Shown piece by piece: positions 55,640 to 63,487 of a DNA stretch of 63,572 bases. Both the position numbers and the translations under genes were made by a program. How positions within the stretch are numbered: the stretch's first letter is position 1; every line of letters begins with the position of its first letter. Source of the DNA: Candidatus Methanoperedens nitratireducens (GTDB taxonomy: Archaea; Halobacteriota; Methanosarcinia; Methanosarcinales; Methanoperedenaceae); NCBI RefSeq assembly GCF_900196725.1, contig NZ_FZMP01000178.1:1-63572 (forward strand). Reading direction: 5' to 3'. The notes beneath the pieces are model-generated. The model worked only from the letters and a program-made list of their open reading frames with translations. It ran no database searches and was not told the DNA's origin.

Positions 55640-56254
55640 TTAAGCCCACCAATCATCCCTGAATCGATATCTGTTGACATGAGGATCAAGTGCCTGACTC
55701 GAATAAACATTCATAACGGTCTCGATATCCCATCTTGCCCCATAGAGTTTCGCAACATCTTCAGCCTCCAAAACATCTTTTGAAATATTAGTGAGATAAA
55801 CATGGTACTTTTCCTCATCTTCATTGAAAACCGCTACCAATCGGAACTGTTCAGTATCCAATCTTTCCTTGCCATTGTATTTTCGTCTCTTGAAAGAGAC
55901 CTCAACTTCAACATCGAGTACCTGTCGTTTTAACTTTGGTAGAATTTCACTGATATATTTTCCTTTCACATCGATACTGTTACCCCGGCAAGTATTATGC
56001 ACATCCACAATGAGAGGATCAGCGTTTCCCTTCAACCTGGACACAAAGTAGCAGCCGTTCTCTTTGATCCTTGCAAAAAGCTGATGTTTATAAAAACCAA
56101 GATCGATAAGAAGAATTCTATCTTTTATCCATGGACCTATTCGCAACGTCTTCAATTCATTTGTACTTTCAGCATGGATACTGATGCTTTTTGGGCTATT
56201 TGCTACCGCACTTACCAATAAGCTTACTTTAACGCCTGCTGCTACAGTTCTCTC
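55640..56254 (-). mobile_element. Truncated IS4-type transposase remnant
   Basis: The frame is open from 56254, with no start of its own before a TGA at 56255. It gives 'LLVSAVANSPKS', 'ILLIDLGFYKHQLFARIKEN' and 'YLTNISKDVLEAEDVAKLYGARWDIE', the DDE core of IS4-family transposases. The N-terminal domain is missing, and after 'WDIET' the end (YREKMN-type region with the last Glu) is replaced by unrelated residues. No clear terminal inverted repeats were found. It interrupts the ABC ATPase gene. Confidence 0.8.
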
Positions 56255-56401: not shown

Positions 56402-57019
56402 ATGGCAATTCCAAAAATGCTTTATGTATCAGAGCAAACTCCACATGGTCCGCATACGCTGGATATTTATTCCCGCCTGCTGGATGATCAGATAGTATTT
56501 CTCACAGGTGAAATCAATGAAGATACTGCAGAAAGTATCATCGCACAACTTCTTTATTTAGAAGCAAAAGACTTCGAAGGTGATATCCGTTTATATATAG
56601 ACAGCCCCGGAGGACTGGTCACTGCTGGCCTTGCTATCTACGACGCAATGCAATGCACCAAATGCGGTATCGAAACCATCTGTATCGGGCAGGCTGCCTC
56701 TATGGCTGCGGTTTTACTGGCAGCGGGAGCCAAGGGAAAAAGGATGGCATTTCCTAATGCACGGGTGATGATACACCAGCCACTTGGTGGAGCACAGGGA
56801 CAGGCATCGGATATCGCTATTCAGGCAAAAGAGATGGCAAGGATTAAAAAGCATCTTAACGAAATCTTGGTCCATCACACAGGGCAGCCCATTGAGGTCA
56901 TTGAGAAAGATACGGACAGGGATTTCTTCCTGACAGCAGAGGAAGCGATGGAATATGGGCTAATAGATGATGTAATGAGGGCTGGTGAAGGAGTAATTAA
57001 AGCGAACAAAGGGATATGA
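56402..57019 (+). CDS. clpP: ATP-dependent Clp protease proteolytic subunit
   Basis: The 205-residue protein is a full-length ClpP. The triad is S100 in '[12 protein letters not shown]', H125 in '[11 protein letters not shown]' and D174 in 'DTDRDFF'. It also has '[20 protein letters not shown]' and '[10 protein letters not shown]'. ClpP needs a ClpX/ClpA-type unfoldase, and none is in the window. ClpP is rare in archaea, and the strong bacterial-style RBS (AAGGAGGA) suggests transfer from bacteria. The last four bases overlap acnA. It lies 150 bases after the transposon debris. Confidence 0.95.
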
Positions 57020-59787
57020 ACGCAGACATGAATCCATTTGGGTCTAAAGATGTTATCGATACAGGCAAGGGTCGCGTGAATATCTATCGCATTAGCAGAC
57101 TTGAGGAGATAGGCTTAGGAAACATCTCTCATTTTCCGTACTCCATCAAGATATTACTTGAAGCTCTCCTTCGACATGTGGATGGATTGCTTGTAACGGA
57201 GGAAGATGTCGAATCATTAGCTAGGTGGAATCCAAAAAAGATGCCAGAGCGCGAGATACCTTTTATTCCTGCAAGGGTGCTTCTGCAGGATTTCACAGGA
57301 GTTCCCGCAGTGGTTGACCTGGCTGCCATGAGGTCGGCTGTTGAAAGGCTGGGAGGCGACCCGGCAAAGATTAATCCCGTTATACCCGCAGACCTTGTTA
57401 TTGACCATTCCATCCAAGTGGATTATTACGGCACCTCATACGCCAGAGCTTATAATGAGAAAAAGGAATTTGAACGGAACCACGAGAGGTATACTGTTCT
57501 TAGATGGGGTCAAAATGCTTTTGATAATTTTCGCATTATTCCACCGGGCAGAGGAATAGTCCATCAGGTAAATCTTGAATATCTCGCGTCGGTAGTTCAG
57601 GTCAAAAAAGTGAACGGCGAGCCTGTCGCCTTTCCGGATACCCTTGTCGGGATGGACTCTCATACCACAATGATAAATAGCCTGGGAGTGCTGGGATGGG
57701 GTGTTGGAGGGATAGAAGCAGAAGCTGTCATGCTCGGCCAGCCCTATCACATGCCGGTTCCTAAAGTTGTAGGATTCAGGCTTTACGGTGATTTGAAGGA
57801 GGGAGTAACAGCCACAGATCTTGTTCTCACCATTACCCAGATCTTAAGGAAACATAACGTTGTGGGTAAATTCGTTGAATTCTATGGGCAGGGTTTGAAC
57901 ACATTAAGCCTGCCCGACCGGGCGACCATATCCAACATGGCTCCTGAATACGGAGCAACTGTGGGATTCTTTCCCATCGACGAGGAAACATTGAATTATC
58001 TCCTGATGACAGGAAGGAAAAGGGAGCACGTTAATCTGGTTAAGTTATATGCAATGGAGCAGGGTCTCTTCCGCACAGATGAAAGTCCAGAACCCCTGTT
58101 CAGCGAGACTCTGGAACTTGACATGAGCAACGTTGAACCAAGCCTCGCAGGGCCGAGACGACCCCAGGATCGTATACCTCTTGATGAAATGGAAGCAAGT
58201 TTCCACAAAGCCATGGAGGAGACGTTTCTGCGGAAAAAAACTGAAGTGGAAGCTGATCATGAATTTCACCGCTGGCTTGGAGAGGGCGGAAGCTTCAGGG
58301 TCGAGCATAAACATATCGGCGGGGAACAGCCCAGCGCAAAATATGAGATGAAAGTCCCGGTAAAAAGCGGTTCGATAGTAATTGCAGCCATAACCTCATG
58401 CACCAACACTTCAAACCCCTCTGTGATTATCGGAGCAGGTCTCCTGGCAAAGAATGCAGTCGAGCGCGGACTCAAGGTCAAGCCTTATGTTAAAACTAGC
58501 CTTGCTCCAGGTTCGCGTGTTGTGAGTGAATACCTTGCGAACTCGGGACTCATGCCCTATCTTGAGGCTCTGGGATTCCACCTTGTGGGATACGGATGCA
58601 CGACATGCATAGGCAATAGCGGTCCGATCCCGGAGAACGTTGCCAGGGCGGTGAAAGAGAATAACCTTATAGTCGCTTCGGTATTAAGTGGAAACCGCAA
58701 TTTTGAGGGCAGGATTAACCCGCTCGTCAAAGCAAATTACCTTGCCTCGCCTCCATTAGTGGTAGCATACGCCATATCTGGTACAGTGGATATTGATCTT
58801 AAAACGGAACCTGTCGGATACGATCCGAATGGAAAACCGGTATATCTAAAAGATATCTGGCCTGATCAAGAGGAAATCCGGCAGGTTATAAAAAATATAA
58901 TCAAACCAATGTTGTTTGAAAAACAGTATTCAGAGATATCAGACGGCACAGAGCTATGGGAGAACCTCAAAGTCCCTTCTGGCAAACTCTATGAATGGGA
59001 CAACGAATCGACCTATATCCAGGAACCTCCCTTCTTCAGGGATTTCCCGGTAAAGCTTCCTGAAAAGGGTGATTTGATGGGTCTCAGGGTACTTGCATAC
59101 CTGGGAGACAGCATCACGACGGATCACATTTCCCCGGCGGGGGAATTTTCTCAAGACGCTCTTGCGGGACAGTATCTGATATCCTGTGGAGTGGCACCGG
59201 AAGATTTCAATTCCTTCGGATCAAGAAGAGGAAATCATGATGTCATGATGCGGGGAACATTTGCAAACATAAATCTCAGGAACAGACTTGTTCCTGATAA
59301 AGAAGGAGGATGGACTCTATATTTACCCACCAGAGAAAAAATGACAATTTACGATGCAGCGATGCTTTACAAAAAGAACGGCATCCCTCTTGCTATCATA
59401 GCAGGGAAAGAATACGGCACAGGCAGTTCCCGCGATTGGGCTGCCAAGGGCACATGTCTTCTTGGGGTCAGAGCAGTAATAGCTGAATCGTTTGAGCGCA
59501 TCCACAGGAGCAACCTCGTGGGAATGGGCGTTCTGCCGCTGCAGTTCATGAAAGGGGAGAGCGCAGATACGCTGGGCATTAATGGGGATGAGGTACTGGA
59601 TATCCTTGGTATAAGTAACATAGAGCCTGGGGGAGAACTGCGCGTGGTTGCAAGAGATGAAAATGGAAAAGAAAAGACATTTAACGTCATGGCAAGACTG
59701 GACTCGCTGATTGAGGTGGAATTTTATAGAAATGGCGGCATACTGCATACATTCCTCAGAAATATATTAAGTAATAAAAGGAGTTGA
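57016..59787 (+). CDS. acnA: Aconitate hydratase A (bacterial type)
   Basis: The 923-residue enzyme isomerises citrate and isocitrate. Motifs are '[16 protein letters not shown]', '[22 protein letters not shown]', the cluster cysteines in '[11 protein letters not shown]' and '[13 protein letters not shown]', '[13 protein letters not shown]' and the swivel-domain '[15 protein letters not shown]'. The order of domains and length match AcnA/IRP-type proteins. It overlaps clpP by ATGA and is followed by the dehydrogenase gene. Most methanogens use other aconitase types, so this suggests import. Confidence 0.96.
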
Positions 59788-59792
59788 AAACC

Positions 59793-61160
59793 ATGAAAAA
59801 GATGATCTCTATTAACTCCGCTACGGGGGAGATAAATAGGGAATTTGAACTTTATTCACAAGAAAGGATAAACGAAGCGATTAGAAAGTCCAGGACTGCC
59901 TTTTCAGAATGGAAGAATCTGGATATCTCTGACAGGGCAGAATATCTTACGAATGCTGCGAAGGTGTTGCGAAGACGGAAGAAGGAACTTGGTGAAATTA
60001 TCACATTGGAAATGGGTAAACCTGTAAAAGAGTCCATACCCGAGGTTGAAAAATGCGCATGGGCTCTTGAGTACTTCGCGGAGAATGCTGAGCGATTTTT
60101 GGAACCTGAGATCGTGGAAACAGATGCCAGGAAGTCGTACGTTTCATTTGAACCGCGTGGAGCGATACTCTGCATCATGCCCTGGAACTTTCCATTCTGG
60201 CAGGCTTTGCGTTTCGCTTCCCCGGCTTTATCTGGCGGGAACGTTGTATTGCTCAAACATTCAAGCTACGTCCCCTTATGCGCATTGGAACTTGAAAAGG
60301 TTTTTTTAGAGGCAGGTTTTCCCGAAGGGGTCTTCCAGACGCTACTGATAGATGGATCAACTGCATCAGCACTTATAAAGAGAAAGGAGATAGATGCAGT
60401 ATCCTTAACAGGCAGCGTTTCTGCAGGACAGAAGGTGGCAGAGGTCTGTGGGCAGAACATGAAAAAGTTTGTCCTCGAACTTGGTGGAAGTGATCCTTTC
60501 ATCGTACTTGCAGATGCTGATATAGAAAAGGCTGCAAAGATTGGAGTTGCCAGCAGGTTTCTCGATGCTGGTCAGAGCTGTATCGCTGCGAAACGTTTCA
60601 TCGTCGAAGAAAGTATAGCAGAGGTGTTTACCTCAAAATTTGTTGAGTATGCTTCTAACCTCAAAGTAGGGGACCCGATGGACCCGGATACTGATATAGG
60701 CCCACTTGTAAGGGAGGAGCAGATAGAACTCCTTGAAGAACAGGTGAAGGATGCTTTATCCAGAGGAGCAAGAGTTCTACTTGAAGGAGGAAGACTTCAA
60801 AGGAGAGGGTTCTTCTATTCTCCTGTCGTACTTTCCGATGTCACATGGGAAATGAAGGTGTTAAAGGAAGAGACGTTCGGTCCTGTGGCGCCTGTAGTTC
60901 CAGTAAAAGATGAGTCTGAAGCGATAAAAGTAGCCAATGACTCCGAGCTTGGGCTCGGGGCGAGTATATGGAGCAAGGACAGGGACAAGGCACTTCGTCT
61001 TGCAAAAGAGATTGAAGCAGGCGTTGTGGTTGTAAATTCGCTTGTTAAGTCCGACCCTCGCCTGCCTTTCGGAGGAGTAAAGAAGAGCGGCATTGGAAGA
61101 GAGCTCTCAAAATTCGGGCTCTACGAATTCATGAATATCAAATCCATATCGGTGTACTGA
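59793..61160 (+). CDS. gabD: Succinate-semialdehyde dehydrogenase (GabD1-like aldehyde dehydrogenase)
   Basis: The 455-residue protein starts at ATG 59793 behind GGAG; an in-frame TTG at 59784 is less likely. The ALDH motifs are 'MPWNFPFWQALRFA', 'SLTGSVSAGQKVAE', 'LELGGSDPFIVLADADIE', the nucleophile Cys in 'DAGQSCIAAKRFI' and 'EETFGPVAPVV'. The short form and 'GGSDPF' match the SSADH type near GabD1. It lies between acnA and the ThDP enzyme, with 1 base to the latter. It would oxidise succinate semialdehyde to succinate. Confidence 0.9.
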   Translation: MKKMISINSATGEINREFELYSQERINEAIRKSRTAFSEWKNLDISDRAEYLTNAAKVLRRRKKELGEIITLEMGKPVKESIPEVEKCAWALEYFAENAERFLEPEIVETDARKSYVSFEPRGAILCIMPWNFPFWQALRFASPALSGGNVVLLKHSSYVPLCALELEKVFLEAGFPEGVFQTLLIDGSTASALIKRKEIDAVSLTGSVSAGQKVAEVCGQNMKKFVLELGGSDPFIVLADADIEKAAKIGVASRFLDAGQSCIAAKRFIVEESIAEVFTSKFVEYASNLKVGDPMDPDTDIGPLVREEQIELLEEQVKDALSRGARVLLEGGRLQRRGFFYSPVVLSDVTWEMKVLKEETFGPVAPVVPVKDESEAIKVANDSELGLGASIWSKDRDKALRLAKEIEAGVVVVNSLVKSDPRLPFGGVKKSGIGRELSKFGLYEFMNIKSISVY

Positions 61161-61161
61161 A

Positions 61162-62799
61162 ATGAAAGGTAGCGACCTCTTTGTAAGATGCCTTGAGAAT
61201 GAGGGTGTGGAGTACATATTTGGCGTCCCTGGAGAGGAGGTCCTTGATTTATTGGATTCCCTTTCAAGGTCAAAGATAAAATTTATTGTTACAAGGCACG
61301 AGCATGGAGCAGCCTTTATGGCTGATGTCTATGGGAGGGTTACGCACACTCCGGGTGTTTGCCTTTCTACGCTCGGTCCAGGGGCGACGAACCTTATTAC
61401 AGGCGTGGCAGATGCGTATCTTGACAAGGCGCCCCTGGTAGCGATAACAGGGCAGGCAGACCAGGAAAAAACTCACAAGGAAGCACATCAATACATCGAC
61501 ATCGTGGGTTCTTTCAAGTACATCACAAACTGGAACACGATCATCAAACGTGCTGACTTTATACCTGAGATCGTAAGGAAGGCATTTGATATAGCCGCTG
61601 ACGCGCCTGGAGCGGTGCATATAGAGCTTCCAGAGGATGTGGCAGAGGAAGAGACAGGTAAAGTACCTCTTCAGAGAAAAGGTAAAGGCCATATCAGTTC
61701 GCCGGGAGAAGATGAATTGAATAGAGTGGCTGCTTTTCTAAAAAATGCTTCAATGCCCATAATACTGGCAGGCAATGGAATTCTAAGGGAGGAAGCTTTC
61801 CCGGAGCTTAAAGAGTTCGTAGACAGAACAGGTATACCGGTTGCCACAACTTTCATGGGGAAAGGGGCGATACCTGCGGACAGCCACCTCTACTTAGGCT
61901 CTGTGGGCATTCAGGAAAAGGATTATATCATCTGCGGCATTGACGTTGCAGACCTTGTGATATGTATTGGATTTGATCCGGTAGAGTACAGCCCGCGATT
62001 CTGGAATCCAGAGGCTTCAAAAAATATAATCCACATCCATTCTAACCATCCAGTAGTGGATTCCAGCTACTTGCCCGAGTTCATTCTAATCGGAAGCATC
62101 AAGGAAACACTGAAGCATTTAGTAACTTATTGCGACTTTAAAAAAGAAATACCAGAATACTTCAGAAAGCTTAAGGGAATAATCGAAGGCGAACTTGAAT
62201 CCTTCGGGGATGACATGAGTTTTCCGATGAAGCCCCAGAAGATATTATATGATATAAGGAAGTGTCTTTCCAGAGGTGACATCCTTATCAGCGACGTAGG
62301 CGCGCACAAGCTCTGGATAGGAAGGCTCTTTCCGGCTTACGAACCTAACACGGTTATAATCTCCAATGGCTTAGCTTCCATGGGTTTTGCTTTACCGGGC
62401 GCCATTGCGGCAAACCTTGTTCTCCCAGAGAAGAAAGTGATTGCTGCAGTGGGCGACGGCGGTTTTATGATGAATCTCCAGGAGCTTGAAACCGCCAGGA
62501 GGCTTGGCTGCAGCTTTGCCGTGGTTATCTTTAACGACTCAAAATACGGGTCTATAGACTGGAAGGCAAGAATAAAATTCAATAGGAGCTTTGGGGTTGA
62601 ATTTTCCAACCCTGACTTTGTCAAACTTGCGGAAAGTTTTGGAGCAAAAGGGGTCAGGATAGATAGGGCGGAGGAGTTTGCCCCTCTGCTAAAAAAGGCA
62701 CTTGAAGATGGAGGAATATGGGTTTTTGATGTTGAGGTTGATTACTCTGAGAATATGAAGCTTTCTCAGAAGTTGAAGGGGGATGTATGTAAGTTTTAG
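61162..62799 (+). CDS. Acetolactate-synthase-like ThDP enzyme, possibly 2-oxoglutarate decarboxylase
   Basis: The 545-residue three-domain ThDP enzyme has the catalytic Glu in 'TRHEHGAAFMADVYGR' (about 45-61), 'LSTLGPGATNLITGVADAYL' and the ThDP motif 'VGDGGFMMNLQELETARR' with 'IFNDSKYGSI'. It looks like the catabolic ALS/IlvB family. No small regulatory subunit is near. Its direct pairing with SSADH mirrors the cyanobacterial 2-oxoglutarate decarboxylase gene, which is usually annotated as acetolactate synthase. The function is inferred: 2-oxoglutarate to succinate semialdehyde, or acetolactate from pyruvate. Confidence 0.85.
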   Translation: MKGSDLFVRCLENEGVEYIFGVPGEEVLDLLDSLSRSKIKFIVTRHEHGAAFMADVYGRVTHTPGVCLSTLGPGATNLITGVADAYLDKAPLVAITGQADQEKTHKEAHQYIDIVGSFKYITNWNTIIKRADFIPEIVRKAFDIAADAPGAVHIELPEDVAEEETGKVPLQRKGKGHISSPGEDELNRVAAFLKNASMPIILAGNGILREEAFPELKEFVDRTGIPVATTFMGKGAIPADSHLYLGSVGIQEKDYIICGIDVADLVICIGFDPVEYSPRFWNPEASKNIIHIHSNHPVVDSSYLPEFILIGSIKETLKHLVTYCDFKKEIPEYFRKLKGIIEGELESFGDDMSFPMKPQKILYDIRKCLSRGDILISDVGAHKLWIGRLFPAYEPNTVIISNGLASMGFALPGAIAANLVLPEKKVIAAVGDGGFMMNLQELETARRLGCSFAVVIFNDSKYGSIDWKARIKFNRSFGVEFSNPDFVKLAESFGAKGVRIDRAEEFAPLLKKALEDGGIWVFDVEVDYSENMKLSQKLKGDVCKF

Positions 62800-62860: not shown

Positions 62861-63487
62861 CTAACTTCCCTTGATAAGAATAGTCTCATTAATATCTTTG
62901 AGGGTATTGCAGGAAGTCATAATCATTGCGATTTTAAAATCTGTTTTCAAATATTCCAAAATTCTCTTGACTCCTTCTACCCCGCTAGAAACTGCCTCTC
63001 TTGCCAGCGGTCTTCCCACCAGGACAAAATCAGCTCCAAGAGCAAACATTTTGACAGCATCAAACCCTGTTCTTACTCCCCCGTCTGCCGTGATCACAAC
63101 CCTTTTACCTTTTTTAGTTCCTCTCACGGCTTTCACAATTTCAGGGAGAACATCCGCAACCCCTGGAGTTGAGTCTAGAACCCTGCCGCCGTGATTGGAA
63201 ATTCCTATCACATCAGCCCCGGCTTCGACCGCAGCAAGTGCATCCTCCTCGCACATGATACCTTTGACAATAAAAGGAAGCGCGGTTGATTTTTTGAGTT
63301 CCTTCAGTTCATCGATCGTTTTCCTGAAAACAGGTTTTCCGGAAAGTGCGAAGTTTACAGAACCTGCGCCGTCGATATCCACGCCCACAGCAACTGCTTT
63401 TTCTTTCTCGGATTGCTTTATCAGCTCTAAAAGGACTTCCTGCGACTGCGGCTTGAAAATGTTTACCCCGTGCCCTTTGACTCTTTT
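62861..63487 (-). pseudogene. 3' half of an FMN-dependent alpha-hydroxyacid dehydrogenase gene
   Basis: The frame runs from just inside a TGA at 63488 to 62861, about 209 codons. It reads as the C-terminal half of a lactate/glycolate-oxidase-type barrel: 'VNIFKPQSQEVLLELI', 'VGVDIDGAG', 'LPFIVKGIMCEEDAL', 'GISNHGGRVLD', 'ITADGGVRTGFDAVKMFALGADFVLVGR' (fragments). The N-terminal ~130 residues are absent, and the upstream sequence to the window end does not supply them. An ATG at 63477 lies in another frame, suggesting a deletion junction. It is probably a remnant. Confidence 0.75.

Follow-up and report, generated by a model that had tools for sequence, protein, structure and literature searches.

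The cyanobacterial 2-oxoglutarate-to-succinate bypass, represented by SYNPCC7002_A2770/A2771, Microcystis MaKGD and Synechocystis sll1981, pairs an IlvB-like 2-oxoglutarate decarboxylase (KGD; about 550 aa) with a GabD1-type succinic semialdehyde dehydrogenase (SSADH). The cyanobacterial KGDs have kcat/KM values of roughly 10^3 to 10^4 M-1 s-1, and a chaperone plasmid was required to express MaKGD. The KGDs of Euglena and Mycobacterium also decarboxylate 2-oxoglutarate, and an excerpt of PMC4224347 places them apart from the cyanobacterial enzyme in phylogeny. Methanogens and ANME archaea are generally credited with only partial TCA cycles, as stated in a passage of PMC9012536 that does not single out Methanoperedens. 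Here, we analyzed a gene run from Candidatus Methanoperedens whose ThDP enzyme and aldehyde dehydrogenase (ALDH), judged from their sequences, quite probably form a 2-oxoglutarate-to-succinate bypass. The pair would be part of the oxidative TCA arm, beside a route through 2-oxoacid:ferredoxin oxidoreductase (OFOR). The first-pass annotation had proposed a bypass of the cyanobacterial type in an archaeon. The predicted pair is indeed present, but its archaeal occurrence is not new as such, because, according to an excerpt of PMC12214013, Zhang and Bryant (2011) had reported closely related genes from certain methanogens. The Methanoperedens pair therefore adds to a known kind.

Host and layout of the gene run

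The window, i.e., the whole stretch of DNA analyzed, is one entire contig (C112) of 63,572 bases. The source genome (3.52 Mb, 250 contigs) has a completeness of 100 and a contamination of 5.18. The host is Candidatus Methanoperedens (ANME-2d), and its ThDP protein shares 94% identity with the counterpart in Candidatus Methanoperedens nitroreducens (NZ_JMIY01000005.1). Five genes were checked at the locus:

56402-57019, + strand: clpP, bacterial-type Clp protease subunit, 205 aa (PF00574, 271 bits)
57016-59787, + strand: acnA, aconitate hydratase, 923 aa (TIGR01341, 1379.5 bits, cut-off 945)
59784-61160, + strand: ALDH, predicted SSADH (Aldedh PF00171, 490.7 bits)
61162-62799, + strand: ThDP enzyme, predicted KGD, 545 aa, three TPP-enzyme domains
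62861-63487, - strand: FMN-dependent 2-hydroxyacid dehydrogenase, rubredoxin-fused, C-terminal part (PF01070, 169.6 bits)

The coordinates and the unambiguous family matches confirmed the tight acnA-ALDH-ThDP unit noticed at first pass, with the correction that the run begins one gene earlier, with clpP, which overlaps acnA by 4 bases and is counted as the first gene for that reason. The ALDH can start either at a TTG, giving 458 aa and a 4-base overlap with acnA, or at an ATG (59793), giving 455 aa and lying 5 bases past acnA; the ThDP gene begins 1 base past the ALDH stop. The genes of this unit are presumably co-transcribed. In three relatives (G014, G030 and G028), but not in G013, clpP is also found directly 5' of acnA, and a full-length or nearly full-length AcnA occurs in 5 of the 31 genomes of the genus. 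No IlvN-like small subunit was found among the five genes, in agreement with the earlier remark that the ThDP protein has no IlvN partner.

The FMN dehydrogenase gene is convergent with the acnA-SSADH-ThDP unit. Roughly the N-terminal half is absent from its frame short of the contig edge. Four relatives have stop-to-stop frames of 415-429 aa with a rubredoxin-like N-terminus, as judged by eye. The gene was located within a few kb of sdhAB in G022, G011 and G018, and in G022 also of aconitase and citrate synthase genes.

Family and active site of the two enzymes

The ThDP protein passed the cut-off of NCBIfam NF006187 (PRK08322; 721 bits versus 509). It is IlvB-like and full-length, and it carries the KGD-type motif set (catalytic Glu E47, GDGG at 431, D459). 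NF006187 is titled 'acetolactate synthase large subunit', the closest solved structures are acetolactate synthases, and in an excerpt of PMC4224347 the Synechococcus gene itself is described as 'actually the acetolactate synthase gene', all of which would suit a catabolic or anabolic acetolactate synthase with a coincidental ALDH neighbor. However, the protein scored below the equivalog cut-offs of both AlsS (TIGR02418, 444.5 versus 551.1) and biosynthetic IlvB (TIGR00118, 397.3 versus 538.35), and a separate biosynthetic IlvB is encoded in the genome (NF004710, 1049.7 versus 976).

A comparison with the assayed Microcystis MaKGD revealed that 14 of the 15 active-site residues checked (taken from PMC10418658) are conserved, namely E50, Q254, V382, A384, H385, K386, A408, M410, G434, D435, D462, Y465, K471 and Y531. 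The sole change is L467, which is replaced by Ser (S464); in MaKGD, the L467A mutation lowered kcat 2.9-fold (PMC10418658). The polar 2-oxoglutarate contacts of MaKGD, Q254, K386 and K471, which were obtained by docking into a predicted model and not from a crystal structure (PMC10418658), correspond to Q251, K383 and K468 here at a constant offset of -3. Among the hydrophobic contacts (V382, A408 and L467), the Val and Ala are retained. At the three polar positions, B. subtilis AlsS has F/A/Q, Klebsiella AlsS has F/H/Q, and the genome's own IlvB has H/Q/W; these substrate-contact residues thus differ from those of AlsS and IlvB. A Methanoperedens relative with a truncated gene (G030) has His at the Q254 position. 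In bacterial PRK08322 members, K386 is conserved and K471 often so, suggesting that these two lysines mark the wider family. Furthermore, both AlsS rows formed their own starred pair in a tree lacking cyanobacterial KGDs. Considering also the ALDH and TCA neighbors described below, an acetolactate synthase is very improbable, and the catabolic version that the first-pass annotation had kept as its alternative is disfavored by the TIGR02418 score and by contact residues unlike those of AlsS.

The best solved relatives of the ALDH are 3vz1 and 4it9 (459 bits), and it is 48% identical to 3vz1, an SSADH chain of Synechococcus PCC 7002. All 10 scored SSADH residues are conserved: the catalytic N131, E228 and C262 together with W130 and S207, the semialdehyde-carboxylate site W135, R139 and S419, and the NADP determinants K154 and S157. 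The site list was taken from PMC7510979, which reports 11 mutated sites; E360 was left unscored; position 360 of 3vz1 is Leu (Thr here), in a part where the numbering is off by one. Of the 44 NCBIfam matches, the 25 best include no curated SSADH model whose cut-off was reached, the top SSADH model among them being NF006915 (532.1 versus 730).

A pair of lysines could accommodate any distal carboxylate, and S464 differs from L467 of MaKGD. The enzyme might thus decarboxylate another dicarboxylic or polar 2-oxoacid (e.g., 2-oxoadipate or 2-oxosuberate), with the ALDH producing the matching dicarboxylate, and the varied neighborhoods of bacterial and haloarchaeal family members would fit this. 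However, the SSADH retains the semialdehyde-binding residue set and the Methanoperedens neighbors are TCA genes, which makes such a substrate unlikely. Coenzyme B synthesis, the pathway of 2-oxosuberate, would need the aldehyde itself and is expected in all methanogens. A role in it was rejected on this pathway logic and on the patchy distribution of the gene (over the cut-off in 39 of 119 relatives' genomes). A carboligase joining a 2-oxoglutarate-derived carbanion to another aldehyde, with no release of succinic semialdehyde, has a precedent in mycobacterial Rv1248c acting with glyoxylate (in an excerpt of PMC10418658). However, the cyanobacterial enzymes release the aldehyde, and SSADH as the usual neighbor suggests that free semialdehyde is made, so that a carboligase appears most unlikely. 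2-Oxoglutarate is the most probable substrate of the ThDP enzyme.

Genomic neighborhoods and probable parallel TCA routes

Of the 39 genomes with a ThDP protein above the NF006187 cut-off, this one included, 37 have an ALDH gene adjoining the ThDP gene; as a control, 2 of 14 named genomes exceeded that cut-off. A TCA gene was found within 7 kb of the ThDP/ALDH pair at 6/6 loci of other Methanoperedens (4/6 if AcnA is uncounted), whereas the identical test at the ilvB loci of these genomes gave 0/6. The TCA genes within 7 kb are as follows:

G014: sdhAB, citrate synthase and acnA
G003: OFOR, aconitase and citrate synthase
G008: sucCD
G020: sdhAB
G030 and G000: acnA only

In wider regions from other families of the order, a TCA-linked gene was nearby in only 3 of 14. 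Cyanobacterial ThDP relatives were absent among the 15 loci from one scan of genome contigs, and no cyanobacteria were among the plasmid records listed (40 of 1701; 60 of 1672). Of two viral contig scans for relatives, one returned none and the other seven loci. The active-site residues of both enzymes and the TCA-gene islands in the genus support the predicted KGD/SSADH bypass and its TCA link.

Several other TCA genes of this genome lie on contigs apart from the acnA-SSADH-ThDP contig. They are a two-subunit archaeal OFOR on C44 (NF041170, 826 versus 800; NF041171, 449.1 versus 423), SucCD on C35 (SucC, 441.5 versus 375.55; SucD, 418.1 versus 353.2), SdhA on C178, and citrate synthase on C107, which passed only TIGR01800 (451.5 versus 421.3), a subfamily to which 2-methylcitrate synthases belong as well. 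Three Iso_dh genes were found on C186, C88 and C122; the first passed a LeuB model and the second passed none. All 6 ThDP-bearing genomes of the genus have SucC as well as a homologue of OFOR alpha (identity 37-100%). The first-pass annotation had suggested that the pair replaces 2-oxoglutarate oxidation and had asked whether a 2-oxoglutarate oxidoreductase is missing. The OFOR, whose use of 2-oxoglutarate is putative, and SucCD do not bear this out, and a bypass standing in for a missing oxidoreductase is rejected on their presence. The predicted bypass would then be a branch of patchy occurrence that runs in parallel, dispensable on paper, and not a replacement.

The unit would encode three steps of the oxidative TCA arm. 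AcnA would interconvert citrate and isocitrate, and an isocitrate dehydrogenase encoded elsewhere would yield 2-oxoglutarate. The ThDP enzyme would decarboxylate this non-oxidatively to succinic semialdehyde and CO2, the SSADH would then oxidize this aldehyde to succinate, with NADP+ as the probable oxidant, and succinate dehydrogenase would produce fumarate. Alongside a probable ferredoxin-linked OFOR and SucCD route, this branch would probably act as a shortcut that works in one direction and yields NAD(P)H. A KGD/SSADH branch set in TCA gene islands would allow some Methanoperedens to oxidize 2-oxoglutarate to succinate in a CoA- and ferredoxin-independent way. Annotation-based metabolic models would miss it, since NCBIfam labels NF006187 'acetolactate synthase'. 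We tentatively suggest, as a possibility less likely than not, that in some Methanoperedens 2-oxoglutarate reaches succinate along two routes side by side. The one through OFOR and SucCD would be reversible, linked to ferredoxin and energy-conserving, and could work in the reductive direction for biosynthesis; the other, through KGD and SSADH and encoded together with aconitase, would be irreversible and yield NADPH. A switch from one to the other would determine the TCA direction. Such a switch would act in a methane-oxidizing archaeon capable of methane metabolism and possibly of stored-carbon oxidation.

Comparison with known systems

The AlsS/IlvB acetolactate synthases share the ThDP fold and domains with the ThDP protein, but their substrate-site residues differ and their curated cut-offs are not reached. 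Among methanogen relatives (family f5 of the order), a PRK08322-type ThDP gene with an ALDH neighbor occurs as in Methanoperedens. In one f5 group, with 65-69% identity, the Q254 position of the members in the residue table is occupied by K or R, except in G045 and G107, which have Q, and K471 is replaced by H, N or Q. A second group, with 43-46% identity, differs in its pocket, with H, N, I and Y at positions 254, 382, 384 and 385 and F at 467, and keeps K386 and K471; the 58-61% relatives G099, G101 and G102 lie outside the table. SdhAB and an aspartase-family gene stand beside the f5 pair in G093 and G118, in the order SSADH-ThDP-SdhA-SdhB-aspartase/fumarase family, and no acnA was seen in the f5 regions read. 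Unlike the cyanobacterial bypass, the Methanoperedens pair belongs to an archaeal anaerobe, has aconitase and clpP in its packed run, and is accompanied by OFOR and SucCD genes. Like it, the pair combines an IlvB-like KGD with a GabD1-type SSADH, and the scored residues are identical at 14 of 15 positions in the KGD and at all 10 in the SSADH.

The packed gene run

The window corresponds to contig C112 of the 3.52 Mb archaeal genome (G000) and encodes the ThDP enzyme in the following arrangement.

56402-57019, plus strand, clpP, first of four packed genes
57016-59787, plus strand, acnA, within the packed run
59784-61160, plus strand, ALDH (predicted SSADH), within the packed run, start TTG with an alternative ATG at 59793
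61162-62799, plus strand, ThDP enzyme (predicted 2-oxoglutarate decarboxylase, KGD), last of the four
62861-63487, minus strand, FMN dehydrogenase piece, convergent, after the ThDP gene

The first-pass annotation had described an aconitase-SSADH-ThDP unit, and gene calls on the window confirmed the three genes, their lengths and their spacing; the run has a fourth member, clpP. This bacterial-type gene shares 4 bases with acnA, and clpP also immediately precedes acnA in the genomes G014 (M. nitroreducens), G030 and G028. Just upstream of clpP, a transposase-like frame was read by eye (55640-56218, minus strand). The FMN dehydrogenase piece is the C-terminal part, alone left before the contig end, of a rubredoxin-FMN_dh fusion whose frames of 415-429 aa are repeatedly found beside TCA genes in Methanoperedens (loci L018, L113, L115 and L117).

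Predicted substrates of the ThDP enzyme and ALDH

The ThDP protein shares 94% identity with its Candidatus Methanoperedens nitroreducens counterpart. It scored 721 bits against NF006187 (PRK08322; cut-off 509) and stayed under the cut-offs of the AlsS (444.5 bits, cut-off 551.1) and biosynthetic IlvB models (397.3 bits, cut-off 538.35). The NCBIfam label of PRK08322, 'acetolactate synthase large subunit', is not assay-based proof. A residue-level study of this enzyme type is available for Microcystis MaKGD (Li et al. 2023, PMC10418658). MaKGD residues map onto the window protein with a constant offset of 3, and 14 of the 15 compared positions are identical, with L467 replaced by Ser. The polar 2-oxoglutarate contacts Q254, K386 and K471 are all present; the residues at these sites are F, A and Q in B. 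subtilis AlsS, F, H and Q in Klebsiella AlsS, and H, Q and W in the IlvB of G000 itself. Because the contacts were derived by docking into a predicted model, as described in PMC10418658, their retention is suggestive of 2-oxoglutarate use and not proof of it.

Among six distinct Methanoperedens sequences, Q/K/K was found in the five full-length ones. The sixth, from G030, has H at the first site and K at the second and ends before the third, its gene being cut after 409 aa. This frame ends inside its contig (G030:C154; L013/L082), and the corresponding 3' part is located on a different contig of this MAG (L017); the split reflects either genuine breakage of the gene or faulty assembly. In relatives of 65-69% identity the first contact is K or R, except for Q in G045 and G107, and the third is H, N or Q. 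The pocket of the 43-46% group within the same order differs visibly but retains both lysines. In a tree of 27 rows without cyanobacteria, a nine-row group (100/99) united the window protein with the Methanoperedens sequences and the 65-69% relatives; both AlsS rows paired elsewhere (100/100), and IlvB formed a very long branch. A search of 392 genomes sampled evenly across the phylum gave 34 with matches at E <= 1e-150, every one from the same order. Two large f5-family genomes in that order, G401 and G450, carry a homologue of 47% identity whose score against the window protein exceeds that of the 43-46% copies typical of that genus.

The closest solved structures to the ALDH are 3vz1 and 4it9 (459 bits), which we take to be the same protein as 3VZ3, consistent with the near-equal scores of both; 8qmq ('Sad', 407.5 bits) is next best, and 3jz4 ('SSADH [NADP+]') scored 316. 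Identity with 3vz1 is 48% (216/448), and all 10 scored residues of the SSADH set are identical. The ALDH retains W135, R139 and S419, which surround the carboxylate of the semialdehyde, as well as K154 and S157, which set NADP preference. E360, the eleventh site listed in PMC7510979, falls where the numbering is offset by one residue and was left out of the score; 3vz1 has Leu at position 360 and the ALDH has Thr. Counting against the SSADH reading, the ALDH reached no SSADH model cut-off among the best 25 of 44 NCBIfam matches listed. According to PMC7510979, 3VZ3 is a Synechococcus PCC 7002 SSADH (a2771), which partners the KGD that was the first of this type to become known.

TCA genes around the ThDP locus

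The genus sample comprised 31 of the 119 genomes compared. The ThDP gene scored above the family cut-off in five of them (G000, G003, G008, G014 and G020), and the truncated G030 copy fell just under it (507.1 vs 509).

Gene order around the ThDP gene in Methanoperedens
G014 (M. nitroreducens): sdhA-sdhB-DUF2769-citrate synthase, convergent with ThDP-SSADH-acnA-clpP
G003: OFOR (2-oxoacid:ferredoxin oxidoreductase) alpha-beta, then SSADH-ThDP-FAD oxidoreductase, IPMI-type aconitase pair, citrate synthase
G008: sucC-sucD-SSADH-ThDP
G020: SSADH-ThDP, convergent with sdhB-sdhA
G030 and G000: clpP-acnA-SSADH-ThDP

Neighbourhoods were searched by tblastn with one reference set at E 1e-12, over 7 kb per side or up to the contig end. 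A TCA gene was found near the ThDP locus in 6/6 Methanoperedens loci, and in 4/6 when acnA, which had drawn attention to the locus, is left out; G000, whose contig stops 773 bases past the ThDP gene, and G030, whose stretch stops just past its gene, were both handicapped. As a control, the ilvB loci of these six genomes were searched in the same way, and a TCA gene was found in 0/6 at E 1e-12 and again in 0/6 at E 1e-20. Because the association takes several different arrangements, it is not one inherited accident. Other TCA genes of G000 sit on other contigs (C107, C178, C35 and C44). One SdhA type occurs in 6/6 ThDP-bearing genus genomes vs 8/25 without the gene (Fisher p = 0.004, relatedness uncorrected, G030 counted as a bearer), and AcnA in 5/31, three of these with the ThDP gene (p = 0.038). 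A DAO-family FAD oxidoreductase recurs in the same neighbourhoods (L081:13929-15164, L085:7894-9105 and L114:15618-16829; family assigned by search for L081 and L085), directly following the ThDP gene in L085.

Within and beyond the genus together, 37 of the 39 genomes above the NF006187 cut-off have an ALDH gene next to the ThDP gene (30/30 in one scan, plus G000, G014, G020, G099, G101, G109 and G106); one of the 30, at L036, is only a 41% match across 147 residues. No adjacent ALDH was found in G037 and G102, where a glutamine-synthetase-like gene was read by eye near the ThDP gene (L096, L097). Several relatives of the same order have two closely spaced SSADH-like genes ahead of the ThDP gene (L089, L090, L091, L092, L098 and L012). 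A TCA-linked gene was present in 3/14 wider regions of relatives in the same order, and 11/14 contained none of the genes searched for. The order SSADH-ThDP-SdhA-SdhB-aspartase/fumarase family was found in G093 and G118, and an aspartase-family gene lies near the ThDP gene in G081; these aspartase-family genes scored 608.5, 615.2 and 577.6, respectively, against NF008909 (cut-off 510) and missed the aspA and fumC equivalog cut-offs. In G098, one of the 11, a malate-dehydrogenase-like frame was read by eye about 7 kb away. Among plasmid relatives of 43-52% identity, for which the gene table is incomplete, an ALDH adjoins in 4/8 regions read (Leisingera, Haloarcula, Vibrio and Aurantiacibacter); the neighbour is a glutamate dehydrogenase gene in Sulfitobacter and a divergent succinate dehydrogenase subunit gene in Haladaptatus, and the Streptomyces and Pectobacterium regions showed neither an ALDH nor such a neighbour.

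A proposed branch beside the 2-oxoacid:ferredoxin oxidoreductase

The proposal that a cyanobacterial-type bypass replaces 2-oxoglutarate oxidation was not borne out, as G000 has an OFOR on C44 and succinyl-CoA synthetase (SucCD) on C35. The C44 enzyme is a two-subunit archaeal OFOR (NF041170, 826 bits, cut-off 800; NF041171, 449.1, cut-off 423). Because G000 also encodes a separate PorA that passes its model cut-off and another Por-like alpha subunit that falls short (504 vs 550), 2-oxoglutarate is a plausible substrate of the C44 OFOR. SucC occurs in 29/31 genus genomes and OFOR alpha (at least 37% identity to C44) in 28/31, a count that takes in two partial genes and one in fragments; both include all six genomes with the ThDP gene. 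C107 carries a citrate synthase/2-methylcitrate synthase family gene, and the C178 SdhA has 77% identity to SdhA of the M. nitroreducens island. Three Iso_dh genes are present, on C186, C88 and C122; the C186 gene passes a 3-isopropylmalate dehydrogenase model, and the C88 gene passed no named model cut-off. L023 (G000:C66, 3036-7311) encodes a pyruvate synthase of four subunits beside an isopropylmalate/homocitrate-synthase-like gene, which passed no named cut-off and which we guess could be a Re-citrate synthase.

In the proposed pathway, citrate synthase and AcnA would form isocitrate, which a putative isocitrate/homoisocitrate-type dehydrogenase would convert to 2-oxoglutarate. KGD would then yield succinic semialdehyde and CO2, SSADH would produce succinate, probably with NADPH, and SDH would take succinate into fumarate formation. 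KGD-type decarboxylation is effectively one-way, unlike OFOR; this suggests that KGD/SSADH is a committed oxidative branch beside the reversible OFOR one.

In the open-licence PMC literature, we found no description of the KGD/SSADH pair in Methanoperedens, which is weak evidence of absence, and the sole match for Methanosarcina with 2-oxoglutarate decarboxylase concerns Prochlorococcus. The KGD/SSADH kind is already known from cyanobacteria, and a 2011 report, as retold in PMC12214013, mentioned related genes in some methanogens.
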